Virus record (IMG/VR): IMGVR_UViG_3300028800_000180
Span: 1 to 40,454 of that record
Strand: one strand, 5' to 3'
Length of the DNA stretch: 40,454 nt
Source: a virus
A program made the translations under genes and the position numbers. How positions within the stretch are numbered: the first letter of the stretch is position 1; each line of letters begins with the position of its first letter. This document shows, piece by piece, positions 5,397 to 40,454 of this stretch. Below the pieces are notes generated by a model. That model did no database searches. It saw nothing but the letters and a program-made list of their open reading frames with translations, and was not told where the DNA came from.

Positions 5397-7448
5397 ATGG
5401 AACTCTCCGACCAGGAAAACAGCGAAGACCTTGCAAGGCCCCTTGAGCTCAAGCGGGCCTTTGACGCATGGTTCGACTTTCATCTGAAGCCGATCATCGA
5501 TGACAACCGTAATCGGTACGAGATGATCCTGGCCGATGCCGAAGAGCGCATCTCTCGCGGGCTATCTGCTCTCCCCTCTACAAAAAGCACTTCCATCGTC
5601 GACGGCTACGTTGAAAATGCGATCTTGGAGTACAACCAGGACCCCGACGCAATCAGCTTCACCTCCCGTTCCCCAGAAAACCCACAGCGTGATAAGTTCG
5701 CCCAGATCCTGACCGAAGATTTCATCTACCGAAAGGACAACACCAGCGGTTTTCATCTCTGGCAGGAAGCAAGCCTCCGATCTGGCGCCGCCGATGGCAT
5801 CGAAGCGGCTTTTGTTCATTGGGTGCACGAGAGCTACAAGAAACCCCTCCCTGACAAGTTCGTGACCCCTGCCGGCCAGGAAGTCCCTCAGCAGATTCAT
5901 GAGCAGTACGGCGAAATGCTGGGCTCCCAGCTGGTTCCGCAAGAGAAAGATGTGATCGTCAGGGACACGTGGGTAATTGACCGCCTCATGCCGCGCCGTG
6001 ATTGCTTTTGGGATCCGAAGATTCCCTATCTCGACGTGAATCTTGGGACCTTCGCCGGGATCCTGATGCCGTTCACCCTGGACGAGATCATGAACTACCA
6101 GGCGAAGGGCGTCTTCAACCTCGACTTCACCGAAGAGGACATCGAGGGCCACCTTGCCAACACTCGGGAAGGGAATGACGCCGCGCTACAGCTGGCGAGC
6201 TTCGACTTCTCCGACGCCGAGCGTGTCGACCTGGGCGATAAGAACCGCGCCGAGGTGATGATCTTCTTCGAGAAGAAAAACTTTCAGTGGTTCGTTCAAT
6301 TCTCCATCGCCGGCAGTTTCCCGCTTTCCAGTTCCCTTCCCGTCAACGACGTTTTTTACAACGGGCGTGAGGTCAACAAGCTCCCGCTCGTGGTGGGATA
6401 CCTGAAGGGCCGGCTGTGGGATGCCACCGGTGTCGGCTTCCCCGAGGTAATCGCCCCGATTGAGGATGAGCTCAGCGATCATCGCAACAATGCGAACGAT
6501 GTGGCCAAGCAGATGGCACAGGGCGGCCGGATACGTGTGAGCCCTGACCACAACATCGACCTTGACCAGCTGGCCAACTCCCGCATTTTCGCCGCAGATA
6601 AGGACGAGTTCGAGTTTGTTCAGTTCCCGAATGGGCTGCTTGAGTCAATGCGCATGGACGATTCCCGAAACCAGGATATTGCCGCGCTTGTACCGATGGG
6701 TGTCGCCGACCGTAGCCGGCAGCTCGCCCTTAAGGGGACAACGAAAGGCCTCGGTCTCCACCAGATGCAAGACCAGGATGCCAACGCGAAGCTGGGTGTC
6801 AACCTGATGATCCGCAACCAGTCCTTCTTCATCCCGGTGCTCTCGCTGGTTGCCGAACTGACCATGGCCTACGAGACCGACGAGATCGTGCTCAAGATCG
6901 CCGCGCGCAACGCCGGGACCCAGTTGCCGACCCAGATCCGGAACGGTCGACAGATCATTGATCTCAGCGTTTTTGACTTTGAGGTGGACGTCCAGATCAA
7001 CGCCGGACTGGGCGCGACTCCTCGCTATAAGAAAGCTCAAAATTTAATGCAAATTGTTGAATTCAGGCAAAAAGCGAACATTCCCACCGACTGGCATGCT
7101 GTCGCTGGAATGTTCAACGTGCTGGCAGGGTTCAACGAGAACCAGTTTGATACCCCTCCGCCGCCACCGAAGCCACCCGAGGTTGACTACAAGGCCAACA
7201 TTAATGTGGACCTCGCGCAACTCCCCCCACAAGCCCAGATGATGCTCCTGCAGAAGATGATGACGGGCGGCATGAGCATCACGGCGAAAGTGGATGGCAA
7301 GAACCCGCAGATGCAGCGCCAGGTGAAAGAACTCGAGCAGAACGGCGGCGGCATGGCGGTTCCCGAGCGTACAGCGATGCAGATCCCCGACATGCAAGGC
7401 GCGGCCGGTGCGGCGATGTCGGCCGGGGGGCAGATGAATGGCCAGTAG
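5397..7448 (+). CDS. Portal protein
   Basis: A 683-residue protein placed directly after TerL, the usual position and length for podovirus portals of the P22/SU10 size class. It has an N-terminal helical region, a central mixed domain and a C-terminal Pro/Gln/Met/Gly-rich tail (about residues 590-683), as seen in long portal barrels. I chose ATG 5397 because GGGGGGATCA sits just upstream; a GTG at 5373 is the in-frame alternative. Twelve copies would form the DNA entry vertex and bind the terminase and, after packaging, the adaptor. The stop overlaps the next gene. The call rests mainly on synteny, length and recognisable portal-like sequence such as the ALVPMGVADRSRQLALKGTT segment. Confidence 0.85.
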   Translation: MELSDQENSEDLARPLELKRAFDAWFDFHLKPIIDDNRNRYEMILADAEERISRGLSALPSTKSTSIVDGYVENAILEYNQDPDAISFTSRSPENPQRDKFAQILTEDFIYRKDNTSGFHLWQEASLRSGAADGIEAAFVHWVHESYKKPLPDKFVTPAGQEVPQQIHEQYGEMLGSQLVPQEKDVIVRDTWVIDRLMPRRDCFWDPKIPYLDVNLGTFAGILMPFTLDEIMNYQAKGVFNLDFTEEDIEGHLANTREGNDAALQLASFDFSDAERVDLGDKNRAEVMIFFEKKNFQWFVQFSIAGSFPLSSSLPVNDVFYNGREVNKLPLVVGYLKGRLWDATGVGFPEVIAPIEDELSDHRNNANDVAKQMAQGGRIRVSPDHNIDLDQLANSRIFAADKDEFEFVQFPNGLLESMRMDDSRNQDIAALVPMGVADRSRQLALKGTTKGLGLHQMQDQDANAKLGVNLMIRNQSFFIPVLSLVAELTMAYETDEIVLKIAARNAGTQLPTQIRNGRQIIDLSVFDFEVDVQINAGLGATPRYKKAQNLMQIVEFRQKANIPTDWHAVAGMFNVLAGFNENQFDTPPPPPKPPEVDYKANINVDLAQLPPQAQMMLLQKMMTGGMSITAKVDGKNPQMQRQVKELEQNGGGMAVPERTAMQIPDMQGAAGAAMSAGGQMNGQ

Positions 7449-30856: not shown

Positions 30857-32176
30857 ATGACCAAACGTATCGATAAATTGACCATAGAACAGACAGCCGC
30901 TATGCCGGCATTCGCTAAACAGTGGATCGACATCGGGCTCAAGACCGGCGAAACAGACTGGGCGACGTTCGACCAGAACATGCCGATCTGCTACGAGAAG
31001 GCTGGCCTCAAGTACCCGACCCGCGTGGTGCGCGTTTCCTCCCCACTTGTGGGGGCTCTCGCCGCAAGCGTCGCAGAAGCCATCTGGAGGAAACGCCGCG
31101 ACGCTGTGCGCGACGCTGTGGACGGCGCTGTGGGCGGCGCTGTGGGCGGCGCTGTGGACGACGCTGTGGGCGGCGCTGTGGACGACGCTGTGGGCGACGC
31201 TGTGGGCGTCGCTGTGGACGGCGCTGTGCGCGACGCTGTGGACGACGCTGTGCGCGTCGCTGTGCGCGTCGCTGTGCGCGACGCTGTGGGCGTCGCTGTG
31301 GACGGCGCTGTGGGCGGCGCTGTGGACGACGCTGTGGGCGTCGCTGTGCGCGTCGCTGTGCGCGACGCTGTGGGCGACGCTGTGGGCGTCGCTGTGGACG
31401 GCGCTGTGCGCGACGCTGTGGGCGGCGCTGTGGGCGGCGCTGTGCGCGTCGCTGTGGGCGGCGCTGTGCTTTCTGCCGTTCAGATCGCCAAGAAGGCGGG
31501 TGTATCTATCGGCTGGCATTACTGGCTTGGCGGTCAATTTTGGGTAGGGGGCTGGTGGTGGGGGGCTGTTTCTTCCGTCGCGTTCTTTATGGATGTCTGC
31601 AAATTGAAATTGGCAAAAGACATCGTTGAGCGAGCCAGCGCTTATCGCAAGGTTTGCGAATCAGTCAACTACATCTGGCCTAACCGTGATTTCGTGATGG
31701 TCTGTGCCCGACCGACCAGGATCGAAAAGGATGCCGAGGGCCGGCTGCACTCACTCTCCGACATGGCCATCAAATACCCTGACGGCTGGGGGCTCCATTA
31801 CATTCACGGTGTCAGATTTGAAGATGCTGGGCTTTGGCAGTCCATCGCAGCCGGGACCCTTTCTGCTGCGGAAGTCTTCGCTATCCCCAACATGGAGCAA
31901 CGCCGAGTTGCTTACGAGTGCATGGACAAGCTGAAGATGAAGGAGCTGCCGAACTTCACCATCGTTGACCAGGTCGCAGACGATGGCTGCGGTTTCCCGA
32001 TGCAGATCATCAGTTTTACTCTCAAGGGATTCAATAGGCCTTTCCTTTTCCTCAACGGCTTCTGCCCATCCGGTGGCCGTGAATATTTCCTGGAGACGCA
32101 GCAGTCGGATTGCTGGGAAGCCAAGGCCGCGAGCTTTGGGCTCGATCGCAGCGTGGAATGGGTCGCTGAATACTAA
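30857..32176 (+). CDS. DUF6745-like protein with 31 four-residue repeats
   Basis: A 439-residue protein. Residues 1-80 are helical (KLTIEQTAAMPAFAKQWIDI). Residues about 81-204 are 31 copies of a four-residue unit X-Z-Ala-Val, where X is Arg/Asp/Gly and Z is Asp/Gly/Val. A Trp-rich segment follows (WHYWLGGQFWVGGWWWG), then a C-terminal domain with WGLHYIHGVRFEDAGLW, as in DUF6745 proteins (about residues 310-325). The repeat would form one long amphipathic helix, or a stalk. The repeats are described separately. Reading frame, ribosome site (AAAAGGGGGAATCAAA) and C-terminal conservation support a real gene. Function is unknown; DUF6745 proteins in other genomes also carry low-complexity inserts, as I recall. 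Confidence 0.75.
   Translation: MTKRIDKLTIEQTAAMPAFAKQWIDIGLKTGETDWATFDQNMPICYEKAGLKYPTRVVRVSSPLVGALAASVAEAIWRKRRDAVRDAVDGAVGGAVGGAVDDAVGGAVDDAVGDAVGVAVDGAVRDAVDDAVRVAVRVAVRDAVGVAVDGAVGGAVDDAVGVAVRVAVRDAVGDAVGVAVDGAVRDAVGGAVGGAVRVAVGGAVLSAVQIAKKAGVSIGWHYWLGGQFWVGGWWWGAVSSVAFFMDVCKLKLAKDIVERASAYRKVCESVNYIWPNRDFVMVCARPTRIEKDAEGRLHSLSDMAIKYPDGWGLHYIHGVRFEDAGLWQSIAAGTLSAAEVFAIPNMEQRRVAYECMDKLKMKELPNFTIVDQVADDGCGFPMQIISFTLKGFNRPFLFLNGFCPSGGREYFLETQQSDCWEAKAASFGLDRSVEWVAEY
31097..31468 (+). repeat. 31 tandem 12-bp repeats, coding
   Basis: 372 bases made of 31 twelve-base units, each [CGC|GAC|GGC][GAC|GGC|GTC]GCTGTG. GCTGTG is invariant in every unit even though other Ala-Val codons would do. Only the first two codons vary, from three choices each. 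Longer blocks recur (units 9-12 equal units 24-27). All six frames are free of stops, hence the long false open frames on both strands. Confidence 0.95.
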
Positions 32177-36405: not shown

Positions 36406-36708
36406 ATGAGTGTGCAAGATAAACCAGCATCAGCATGGGCCGTCACGAAAGCACACATGATTATCTGCTGTTTCAAAAGCAGGGAAGCTGCGGCTCAATA
36501 TTTCAGAGATAGACCTTTCCGCACAGGGATGCAGATTGATAAGTCTGAGCCTCTTTTGCATGATGGGACCAGGTGGAATATATGGGGAATTGGTAAAGCC
36601 GTTTACCCTGAAATATTCCGGCAGCTCAACTTAACTATGCCCACGGCAGGAGTTGTCTCCGCTATTAAGTTATTAGAAGACCAAGGGTATCGGGTGGAAA
36701 AGATATGA
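36406..36708 (+). CDS. Hypothetical protein before the helicase
   Basis: A 100-residue alpha/beta protein, no recognised domain. It has the C-terminal pattern AVYPEIFRQLNLTMPTAGVV and a final Lys-Ile. It starts two bases after the previous stop and overlaps the helicase start (ATGA), so it belongs to the replication operon. Local codon use is more A/T-rich than its neighbours, hinting at recent gain. Confidence 0.65.
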   Translation: MSVQDKPASAWAVTKAHMIICCFKSREAAAQYFRDRPFRTGMQIDKSEPLLHDGTRWNIWGIGKAVYPEIFRQLNLTMPTAGVVSAIKLLEDQGYRVEKI

Positions 36709-38414
36709 TCCTTCGCCCCTACCAAAACCGCGCCGTCACCAAGGCCACCAAGGCGCTCAAGAAGCACGGCAACACACTGACTATCGCTTCCACGGGAGCT
36801 GGGAAAACGGTTATGCTCGCCGCCCTTGCTGGGGCTGTTAAGGGGAAGACGCTGGTCCTCCAACACCGTCAGGAGCTCGTGCAGCAGAACAGCAAAAAAT
36901 TCCTCCAGGTCAACCCGACCTGGGGGGTCTCCTTCTTCACCGCCGAGCAGAAGTCGTTCGGCGGTCAGGCGACATTCGCCATGGTGCAGACGCTATGCCG
37001 CAACCTCGACCACCTACCTAAATTCGACCACATCATTGTGGACGAGTGCCACCACCTGGCGGCACGCACCTACGGCGACACCATCGAGGCATGCCGGGTG
37101 CGCAACCCTAAACTGCTGCTCTCCGGCTTCACGGCAACTCCTGAGAGGGGGGACCGTAAGAGCCTGCGCCGCTACTTCGACAACGTGGCCGAGAAGATCA
37201 CCATCCGGGAGTTGGTCTCCCTGGGCTTCCTTGTCCCGCCAAAAGCCTACGTGGTGAACGTCGGTGCCCAAGAAGAACTCAGGAATCTGGGCACGCTGTC
37301 CGCCTTCGGAGATCAGAGCGACGTGGCCAAGGTCCTCGACACACCCAATATCAACGCCGAGGTCGTTCGGCACTGGTCCGAGAGAGCATCGGATCGCAAG
37401 ACCATTATTTTCTGCGCGACATGCCAACACGCTTACGACGTGGCCGAGGCCTTCAAAAAAGCCGGGGTGGATGCTGGAGTTGTGACAGGGGATATGGCCG
37501 ACGGCGAACGCCGGGCCATGCTGACCAGATTCGACAAGGGGCGGCTGCAGGTGCTGGTCAACGTGGCCGTGCTGACCGAGGGGTACGACTCGCAGCCGAC
37601 GGCCTGCGTGATTCTGCTGCGCCAGTGCTCAGAAAAAGGACCCATGGTCCAAATGGCCGGAAGAGGGCTCCGGACAGTCGACCCGGCGCTATACCCGGGC
37701 GTGGTGAAGAAGGATTGCATCATCCTGGACTTCGGCACGTCGCTACTGACGCACGGCAACCTCGACCAGGAAGATGGGCTTCACGAGGATCATGTCCCGG
37801 ATCCGAACGCCGAGGCGGTAACGAAGACCTGCCCGGTGGAGTATAAGCCGGGAATGGTCTACCGCTTTCCCGACCAGTGCGGCAATGAAGGGTGCGGCGC
37901 CGAAGTGCCGGCACAGACCCGGACCTGTCCGATCTGCGGCTTCCGCTTTGAGCGCATGGACGGGGTAGAAGAGGCGGGGCCCACGGCCATCGACCTGACC
38001 GAAATCGACATACTCAACGCGAGCCCCTTCCGCTGGTTAGACCTCTTCGGAACCGACACTTGCATGATGGCGTGCGGGTTCGCGGCCTGGGTTGGGGTAT
38101 TTTCCCCTGATCGGGGTGAAACGTGGGTAGCGATCGGGAAGCTGCAGGATGAGAAACGAGTCCATCAATTGGCACTCACCGGCCGCATGCAGGCAATAGG
38201 GGCCGCCGACGATTTTTTAAGGAATTACGAAACGGACGGCGCGGCCAAGAAGTCTAAACGCTGGCTTGACGATCCGGCCACTCCCCGGCAGATGGAGATT
38301 TTACAGAAATTCGGGTACGACCCGAACCCGTTTGCGTTCACGAAGTACGCGGCGGCATGTCACTACAATTTCGCCTTTAACAAAAGGCTGATCGAAGGCG
38401 CATTAGGGGTCTGA
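36705..38414 (+). CDS. DEAD/DEAH-box helicase
   Basis: A 569-residue SF2 helicase. Motif I is ASTGAGKT (about 28-35), motif II is DECH (VDECHH, about 110-115), motif III SGFTATPERGD, and motif VI QMAGRGLRT (about 318-326). A Cys4 zinc knuckle follows (CGNEGC and CPIC, about 390-412). It unwinds DNA in replication or repair. The final 15 residues (FAFNKRLIEGALGV) have a diverged second copy after the HNH gene, so this end was probably replaced when the HNH gene arrived. Confidence 0.92.
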   Translation: MILRPYQNRAVTKATKALKKHGNTLTIASTGAGKTVMLAALAGAVKGKTLVLQHRQELVQQNSKKFLQVNPTWGVSFFTAEQKSFGGQATFAMVQTLCRNLDHLPKFDHIIVDECHHLAARTYGDTIEACRVRNPKLLLSGFTATPERGDRKSLRRYFDNVAEKITIRELVSLGFLVPPKAYVVNVGAQEELRNLGTLSAFGDQSDVAKVLDTPNINAEVVRHWSERASDRKTIIFCATCQHAYDVAEAFKKAGVDAGVVTGDMADGERRAMLTRFDKGRLQVLVNVAVLTEGYDSQPTACVILLRQCSEKGPMVQMAGRGLRTVDPALYPGVVKKDCIILDFGTSLLTHGNLDQEDGLHEDHVPDPNAEAVTKTCPVEYKPGMVYRFPDQCGNEGCGAEVPAQTRTCPICGFRFERMDGVEEAGPTAIDLTEIDILNASPFRWLDLFGTDTCMMACGFAAWVGVFSPDRGETWVAIGKLQDEKRVHQLALTGRMQAIGAADDFLRNYETDGAAKKSKRWLDDPATPRQMEILQKFGYDPNPFAFTKYAAACHYNFAFNKRLIEGALGV

Positions 38415-38415
38415 A

Positions 38416-38880
38416 ATGGCAAAGCAAAAGATAAACGGTCTCGATGAATTCTTATCCATGGTTGAAAAAGGGCCAGACTGCTGGTTATGGAAAGGTCCGG
38501 TTGATCAAAAAGGGTATGGAGTTTTTAGTGCGGAAGGCTTTCAACGCACCCACAGGTACAGCTACTTCAAACACCTTGGGCCGATTCCCGAGGGCCTCCA
38601 TGTTCTGCACAAATGTGACGTGAGAAATTGCGTCAACCCTGATCACTTGTTCCTTGGCACTCACGCCGACAACATGGCTGACATGGGCGCAAAAGGAAGG
38701 ACCGGGACCCGGACCGGAGAGAAGCATCACAAGGCGAAACTGACAGAACAGGACATCGTGGAGATCCGCAAGCGGTATGTCCCGCGCAAGGTGACCTTGA
38801 AGTACCTGGCAGAGCAATACGGCGTAACCTTCGCCATGATCGGCTACATAGTCCGTGGCGACAACTGGAAACATATTTGA
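38416..38880 (+). CDS. HNH homing-type endonuclease
   Basis: A 154-residue HNH endonuclease, starting one base after the helicase stop. The HNH block is HRYSYFKHLGPIPEGLHVLH, then KCDVRNCVNPDHLFLGTHADN (about residues 46-85). The C-terminal 50 residues are an HTH-like region (LTEQDIVEIRKRY, then LKYLAEQYGVTFAMI). It is typical of free-standing phage HNH endonucleases. More A/T-rich than the flanking genes and followed by a duplicated remnant of the helicase end, so it is a recent insertion. Confidence 0.92.
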   Translation: MAKQKINGLDEFLSMVEKGPDCWLWKGPVDQKGYGVFSAEGFQRTHRYSYFKHLGPIPEGLHVLHKCDVRNCVNPDHLFLGTHADNMADMGAKGRTGTRTGEKHHKAKLTEQDIVEIRKRYVPRKVTLKYLAEQYGVTFAMIGYIVRGDNWKHI

Positions 38881-38882
38881 CA

Positions 38883-38930
38883 AATTTCAATTTCAATAAG
38901 CGGCTCATTGAGAGCGCGCTGGGGGTGTAG
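38883..38930 (+). pseudogene. Remnant of the helicase 3' end, displaced by the HNH gene
   Basis: Fifteen codons and a stop translate to NFNFNKRLIESALGV, against NFAFNKRLIEGALGV at the helicase end. Most codons differ synonymously (for example CGG CTC ATT versus AGG CTG ATC). Two similar C-termini with different codons cannot be a simple recent copy. The HNH insertion probably brought a diverged helicase end and left the old one here. No upstream homology is visible before 38883. Confidence 0.8.
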
Positions 38931-39158
38931 ATGGGACTTAAAATTGCTGAAAACGCATTCAAAAACGACCTGCCGTTCCTCAGTAGTGCAGAATTGGCAA
39001 TTTACAATGCTGGTTTTGAGCGGGCAATTCTTATGTTTCAGCCAAAGGCAGATGGTGGCCATGCGGAGCATCGCATGTACCACAGGATACTTTATGAGGC
39101 GGGCTTACTTACAGTAGACCAGGGCGCAGGGCGAACGGTTCTCAAGGGGTGCAAGTAA
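38931..39158 (+). CDS. Hypothetical early protein
   Basis: A 75-residue protein whose ATG immediately follows the stop of the helicase remnant (TAGATG), a natural neighbour of the ancestral helicase gene. It is a mostly helical protein (LSSAELAIYNAGFERAIL) with a His-rich stretch (HAEHRMYHRI). It overlaps the next ATG (TAATG). No family recognised. Confidence 0.65.
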   Translation: MGLKIAENAFKNDLPFLSSAELAIYNAGFERAILMFQPKADGGHAEHRMYHRILYEAGLLTVDQGAGRTVLKGCK

Positions 39159-40293: not shown

Positions 40294-40454
40294 TCGACTT
40301 TAACAGCAAATCCATGCTGTCGGATCGTCTCAACTTCCTCATCGATGAGGCGATCGACATCAACGCACAGAAGGAGGCGCCCCGAGAATACCTCGGGGCG
40401 TCCATCATCGGGCATTCTTGCGAAAGACACGTTCAGTACCAGCTGCTCGAAGCA
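40290..40454 (+). CDS. Cas4/RecB-like nuclease, N-terminal part (continues at window base 3)
   Basis: ATG at 40290 overlaps the TGA of the preceding gene by 4 bases and begins MIDFN, the same five residues that start the primase-helicase and the SSB-like protein. The frame runs to the end of the window. Bases 40324-40454 repeat bases 1-131, and the frame is preserved across the join, so this is the missing 5' end of the nuclease at 1-704. The conserved Cys of SCERH, a presumed Fe-S ligand, lies in the duplicated part. A single mismatch near the edge (40450 versus 127) changes one Ala codon to Glu. Confidence 0.85.
   Translation, partial: MIDFNSKSMLSDRLNFLIDEAIDINAQKEAPREYLGASIIGHSCERHVQYQLLEA
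40324..40454. repeat. Terminal overlap, right copy
   Basis: Second copy of the 131-base overlap with the window start. Removing one copy leaves a circle of 40323 bases. The exact 126-base part is the sort of length left by a fixed k-mer assembler on a circular or permuted molecule, so no biological end should be inferred here. Confidence 0.9.

Follow-up and report, generated by a model that had tools for sequence, protein, structure and literature searches.

A phage HNH gene flanked by two diverged copies of a helicase 3' end: probable homing by replacement of a gene terminus

Introduction

Homing genes are usually regarded as requiring an intron or an intein in order to reside within conserved coding DNA. 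A terminus-replacing kind of homing that involves no splicing has been described for the WHO elements of the yeasts Torulaspora and Lachancea (Coughlan et al. 2020), which are located in yeast nuclear DNA, whose proteins are intein-derived and carry zinc fingers, and whose cleavage activity has been tested (PMC7282813). In fungal mitochondria, mobile ORFs have been disclosed in which an endonuclease ORF has been inserted along with a gene end of foreign origin, the native end being kept downstream (Beaudet et al. 2013; PMC3630166). The resulting C-terminal duplications concern the Glomus genes atp6, atp9, cox2, and nad3, and the atp6 gene of Allomyces is cited in the same paper as the first such case; in Glomus atp6, the native end is about 91% identical to that of a relative, and the two copies share 63.5% identity with each other (PMC3630166).

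As regards phages, MobA and MobE of T4 are free-standing HNH endonucleases, and mobE in the nrdA gene of Aeh1 represents a gene-splitting insertion (PMC2988022). In ICP1 and other phages, nuclease genes are located at the boundaries of genetic exchange and are clustered near essential genes; no description of a displaced gene fragment or of a recoded gene end was found in that work (PMC10448857).

The DNA analyzed here (hereinafter the window) is the entire stretch of 40,454 nucleotides of the IMG/VR virus record IMGVR_UViG_3300028800_000180. It is highly probable that an HNH homing gene devoid of any splicing device has invaded the last codons of a helicase gene of this phage, replacing the end of the gene and displacing the old one.

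Results

General features of the window

The two ends of the window (positions 1-131 and 40324-40454) form a 131-bp direct repeat, 99.2% identical with one mismatch, and the phage sequence L001 (see below) is collinear with the window across the junction of the two ends; on the basis of these two features, the window probably represents an entire phage genome of about 40.3 kb that closes into a circle. A different kind of repeat, i.e., a 12-bp tandem repeat in 31 copies (GCGACGCTGTGG), is located at 31098-31468 inside the ORF 30857-32176, where it encodes a long run of four-residue units (e.g., AVGG/AVDD/AVRD).

Organization of the helicase and HNH genes

The features of the region are listed in Table 1. 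The terminal sequence of the helicase gene is AATTTCGCCTTTAACAAAAGGCTGATCGAAGGCGCATTAGGGGTCTGA, and the HNH_3 gene, which is full-length and intact, begins two bases on; its domain scores 49.3 bits against a curated cut-off of 24.8. The preliminary description had claimed that a second helicase-end peptide, with its own stop, occurs after the HNH gene and just before the next ATG, and this is indeed the case, since AATTTCAATTTCAATAAGCGGCTCATTGAGAGCGCGCTGGGGGTGTAG (48 bp) lies right behind the HNH stop codon (38878-38880), with the next ATG at 38931. The HNH gene is thus embedded between a full-length helicase gene and a fragment of the end of the same gene, which is the architecture of a terminus-replacing (WHO-like) element.

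The two copies share 30 of 45 nucleotides, the remaining 15 bases being different. By codon, 3 are identical, 10 differ synonymously, and 2 carry an amino-acid change (2/15 residues); hence, 10 of the 13 codons that encode the same residue are spelled differently, in agreement with the earlier statement that most synonymous places differ. The similarity score of the two peptides is 63, whereas the maximum obtained from 2713 shuffled gene/locus pairs is 51; this score, together with the independent blastn match of the downstream copy to the helicase end of L001, argues against a chance resemblance.

Three other kinds of mobile element were considered and discarded. A group I intron-encoded HNH element is at odds with the lack of any Rfam intron match in the window at the gathering threshold, and with a helicase frame that reads to its stop codon before the HNH gene. 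An intein does not fit either, as the helicase and HNH genes are separate ORFs, each with its own stop and with no in-frame insertion. Lastly, descent from the yeast WHO family was rejected, because the window protein gave only HNH_3 and weak His-Me finger hits, with no intein-like protein carrying a zinc finger.

Table 1. Coordinates of the helicase-HNH region in the window and of HNH-type genes inserted at one helicase start in Vibrio phages.
Feature	Position	Strand	Evidence or remarks
Superfamily 2 helicase gene, probably chimeric (ResIII/DEAD, PHROG 16), target of the element	36705..38414	+	Pfam ResIII E = 4.1e-23, Helicase_C; phrog_16 E = 2.9e-90
Probable recombination breakpoint (resident helicase on the 5' side, imported 3' tract after)	37981..38022	+	Identity shift vs L001
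Helicase 3' end, probably imported, differently spelled, functional copy	38022..38414	+	
Upstream copy NFAFNKRLIEGALGV plus stop TGA	38367..38414	+	Supplies GGGG immediately ahead of the HNH start codon
HNH_3 endonuclease gene, 154 aa, C-terminus ..NWKHI*	38416..38880	+	Pfam PF13392 E = 3.8e-13; PHROG HNH endonucleases
Displaced old helicase 3' end NFNFNKRLIESALGV plus stop TAG	38883..38930	+	41/45 nt as in HNH-less L001; blastn 38883-38937 E = 1.5e-11
Next gene, directly adjoining the remnant; 75 aa, of no known family	38931..39158	+	
HNH-type gene at the helicase start, L331 (Vibrio phage 1.246.O)	621-1442		
HNH-type gene at the same helicase start, L332 (Vibrio phage 1.225.O)	955-1500		
HNH-type gene at the same helicase start, L317 (Vibrio phage 1.191.O)	2504-3184		

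HNH-less relatives and the displaced copy

If the downstream copy is the old end of the gene, the helicase of a relative without the HNH gene should end like it, as had been predicted. L001 is such a relative, and its helicase protein is 84% identical to that of the window; its gene end matches the remnant at 41 of 45 nucleotides (the first 30 being identical) and the upstream copy at 30 of 45. The blastn comparison revealed that the two sequences are collinear in the upstream genes, the helicase (36705-38324), the helicase end, and the downstream genes, and the segment 38883-38937 of the window is the one that matches the L001 helicase at its very end (5678-5734), the alignment extending from the remnant past the stop codon and into the following gene. 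Nine further HNH-less relatives were compared: eight resemble the downstream copy more than the upstream one, and the ninth is a tie; an HNH-less relative matching only the upstream copy and lacking a remnant, which had been named as the contrary case, was not seen among them. Additional HNH-less relatives (L163, L164, and the distant L165) were retrieved from the genome collection. Therefore, the displaced fragment matches the element-free relatives and the functional end does not, as in a WHO-like element, and the L001 pattern is the reverse of the decay expected in a dead duplicate.

The remnant carries GGGGG ahead of the ATG of the next gene, and it might be argued that it has been kept as the leader and ribosome-binding site of that gene, being a working part rather than a fossil. 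In fact, its GGGGGT lies just upstream of the ATG, and the helicases of the relatives also end with GGGGGT before the next gene. However, such a role accounts for the last few bases only, and the 30-nt identity to L001 precedes the G-run. As a replacement for the displacement by an HNH gene, this explanation looks doubtful; a leader role of the remnant would, in any case, be compatible with that displacement.

Origin of the functional 3' end

The identity between the window and L001 helicase genes is about 80% up to 37981-38022 and 68% afterwards. The breakpoint scan gave a maximum chi-square of 28.9 at 37981, while the best position relative to local conservation was 38009, for which 54 of 5000 block permutations were as extreme. 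In the phylogenetic trees, the window and L001 form a clade (100/100) upstream of the breakpoint, and this grouping is lost downstream; nevertheless, keeping it in the 3' tract was not rejected by the AU test (p = 0.19 with all rows, 0.38 with the most distant row removed), in part because the C-terminus of the helicase is variable. Since the AU test is not significant, the import of about 0.4 kb at the 3' end of the window helicase is considered only probable.

The co-conversion of a foreign helicase 3' end proposed earlier is thus supported by the shift in identity, and not by the tree test nor by the finding of a donor of the upstream copy. Indeed, no donor was retrieved by searching IMG/VR for its exact degenerate DNA pattern, protein searches disclosed no HNH-bearing relative of the window helicase, and blastn of the window region against phages gave no match.

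Survey of HNH loci for further 3' remnants

For HNH loci drawn from IMG/VR and from a small number of other collections, the DNA after the HNH stop was examined for a repeat of the end of the upstream gene. Among the 137 HNH loci with an upstream gene, three carry a 3' remnant, i.e., the window, L070, and L018, in a survey that misses strongly diverged or short remnants. The remnants are placed at 2, 8, and -42 nt from the HNH end, respectively, that of L018 being fused in frame. In L070, the host gene encodes an HNH-family protein, with CHIWMDRTVDGIRFKK before the HNH gene and CHIYLDTTGEGVRFKK after it. In L018, YGTTLERSEAG is located before the HNH gene and YGTTLERAQAG is fused to the HNH end; the host gene is related to RAD52-like annealing proteins, one relative being annotated as such. 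No close HNH-less relative giving a decisive match was found for these two loci, the values for L018 (18 vs 14 of 33 nt) being in the expected direction.

The same test was applied to 938 neighboring gene pairs, some copies of HNH loci still being among them. It matched L068 (the same element as L070), L018, the apparent tandem paralogues L168 and L174, and one low-complexity pair; leaving the paralogues out gives a Fisher p of 0.002, and counting them gives 0.017. L168 looks like tandem paralogues rather than an insertion, as shown by its ORFs, and L174 was judged likewise from the match alone. Five survey matches (L301, L014, L027, L047, and L069) were discarded, being of low complexity or distant from the HNH stop.

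An HNH search in prophages of bacterial genomes yielded few loci. Twelve HNH loci of cultured phages were also checked: no remnant above noise was found in the T7-like, Gordonia, Salmonella, and other phages, and Vibrio phage 1.191.O alone stood out, by inspection.

The mirror-image 5' form

A 5' form of the same organization came to light in the reverse test, in which the region ahead of the HNH gene was searched for a repeat of the start of the downstream gene. In L236 and L251, the HNH gene is located at about codon 15 of a helicase gene; the old helicase start (MLRDYQQRTIDQLYA) persists ahead of the HNH gene, and the helicase begins anew with a differently spelled sequence. The L236 remnant matches the helicase start of the HNH-less MW202867 at 38 of 42 nucleotides, the new start at 21 of 42.

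L236, L246, L232, L251, and L274 share a sharply bounded unit, upstream of which the similarity is at background level. Their HNH genes are 60-88% similar, and the first 1.05 kb of the helicase is about 75-87% identical within each of two groups, then 43-71%, the shared block stopping near 1050 nt into the helicase. Part of this drop is ordinary variability, as the identity falls toward the C-terminus by 7-12 points in HNH-less pairs and by 16-23 points in pairs sharing the element.

These loci bear on the possibility that the HNH gene is an ordinary free-standing gene at a phage mosaic junction, i.e., a passenger of module exchange with no drive and no protective gene end. In phages, HNH genes are known to occur where genetic exchange has its boundaries (PMC10448857), no donor was retrieved for the window, and cleavage is predicted, all of which would suit a passenger. 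On the other hand, the window remnant begins directly at the HNH stop, the same anatomy of the joint is found at genes unrelated to one another, at starts as well as at ends, and the HNH gene of the L236 family forms one sharply bounded unit with the helicase block next to it; on balance, a mere passenger is improbable.

In L183 (2860-3291), an HNH frame starts like the downstream terminase small subunit (KHRATGGKPGGRREGAGRP), which might represent a fused 5' remnant; it is listed as a possible case only, because GxRxGAGRP motifs are common.

Cultured Vibrio phages

The HNH gene of Vibrio phage 1.191.O, which shares 54% identity with its L236 counterpart, is located at the start of a helicase gene. 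The 33 nt preceding the insertion are the helicase start of the HNH-less sibling 1.086.O (33/33), within a matching leader; the 11-residue helicase start they correspond to also occurs, in or at an annotated helicase-type gene, in 12 further Vibrio phage records (with a single mismatch in one of them). Downstream of the insertion, the identity of the helicase to its 1.086.O counterpart is 61% as far as position 1178 (~1.18 kb) and 93% from there on, which makes it a clear example of a chimeric host gene with a breakpoint.

The same site has been used by other enzymes. At this position, phage 1.225.O harbors a different HNH gene (HNH_3 plus AP2); it retains a remnant of its own, in which the start codon has become ACG, and its foreign helicase start is shorter (about 0.25 kb). 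In 1.246.O, a third enzyme (HNH/NUMOD3) is accompanied by a foreign helicase start as in 1.225.O, and no remnant is present. In these sibling phages, three different HNH-type homing genes and two different foreign helicase starts are therefore found at the same helicase gene. The mirror-image 5' form, of which 1.191.O is the clearest case, is considered the decisive support for the replacement of a gene terminus.

A local tandem duplication of the helicase end at the HNH insertion, followed by divergence within the genome with no foreign DNA, would be a simple route to two nearly identical peptides (by target-site duplication), but it is very improbable and may be considered largely refuted: the non-functional copy is the one near the relatives and the functional one is that changed synonymously, the opposite of the outcome expected under relaxed selection; the functional end is divergent as far as about 0.4 kb upstream; and in 1.191.O the siblings are matched at 61% by the functional start and at 100% by the dead fragment.

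Two other observations concern this helicase family. The helicase of 1.086.O (L330) contains a segment (about 840-1080) that is 66-78% identical to its siblings, both sides being about 90%; it appears to be another local replacement, with no nuclease gene adjoining. In L316 (MW202475.1, 480-1194), two adjacent frames, one of which is annotated as NUMOD1, exhibit similar zinc-finger-like repeats (KPC..GHIS..KTQS..C) and lie directly upstream of another helicase of the family; they might be further homing genes at the same site.

Discussion

The terminus replacement proposed for the window may be depicted as follows. The mobile unit would consist of the HNH gene and of the foreign, synonymously different helicase 3' end that immediately precedes it. 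Cleavage most likely takes place in HNH-less helicase alleles, close to the first codons of the remnant (about codon 554), and the break would be repaired, presumably during co-infection, from the HNH-bearing genome, so that the new helicase end and the HNH gene are copied together. Afterwards the helicase would stay whole and probably uncuttable, while the old end, left downstream, could act as a second homology arm and would still bear the ribosome-binding G-run of the next gene.

The recurrence of this organization in other phages, together with its mirror form, suggests a mode of homing and not a single accident. It is likely, though less firmly so than the case of the window itself, that phage HNH homing endonucleases have several times independently come to be accompanied by a start or an end of their target gene that is recoded by nature. 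Introns and inteins would then be joined by a third means of residing in conserved coding sequence, which would be the natural counterpart of engineered home-and-rescue drives, would act at gene starts and gene ends alike, and would reshape genes of replication and recombination. The replacement of a host-gene end would thus be a further solution for homing genes in conserved coding DNA, and the occurrence of phage HNH cases at both gene starts and ends suggests that the route is general. Moreover, sharp mosaic joints within helicase and recombination genes of phages might arise in this way. Vibrio phages 1.191.O, 1.225.O, 1.246.O, and 1.086.O represent a natural with/without series in cultured phages, in which cleavage, resistance, and co-transfer are directly testable.

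No phage report of a displaced gene end with a recoded replacement was found in the open-access literature searched, which is weak evidence of novelty. With T4 MobA and MobE, the elements described here share the condition of free-standing phage HNH homing genes and the co-conversion of flanking DNA; however, the insertions of PMC2988022 are located between genes or split a gene in two, and none is described with a replacement end and a remnant. With the nuclease genes of ICP1, they share the position near essential genes and at recombination edges. As in the WHO elements, the end of the host gene is replaced instead of being spliced; unlike them, the phage elements encode HNH_3 proteins, are found in tailed phages, target replication or recombination genes, also at gene starts, and their cleavage is a prediction. 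The pattern of the window (41/45 and 30/45) is like that of Glomus atp6, whereas the fungal mitochondrial ORFs encode LAGLIDADG or GIY-YIG enzymes, and only 3' ends are described for them in PMC3630166. The terminus-replacing architecture is thus already known from yeast and fungal mitochondria, and what appears to be new, as far as the open-access literature was searched, is its phage HNH_3 version and its extension to gene starts.
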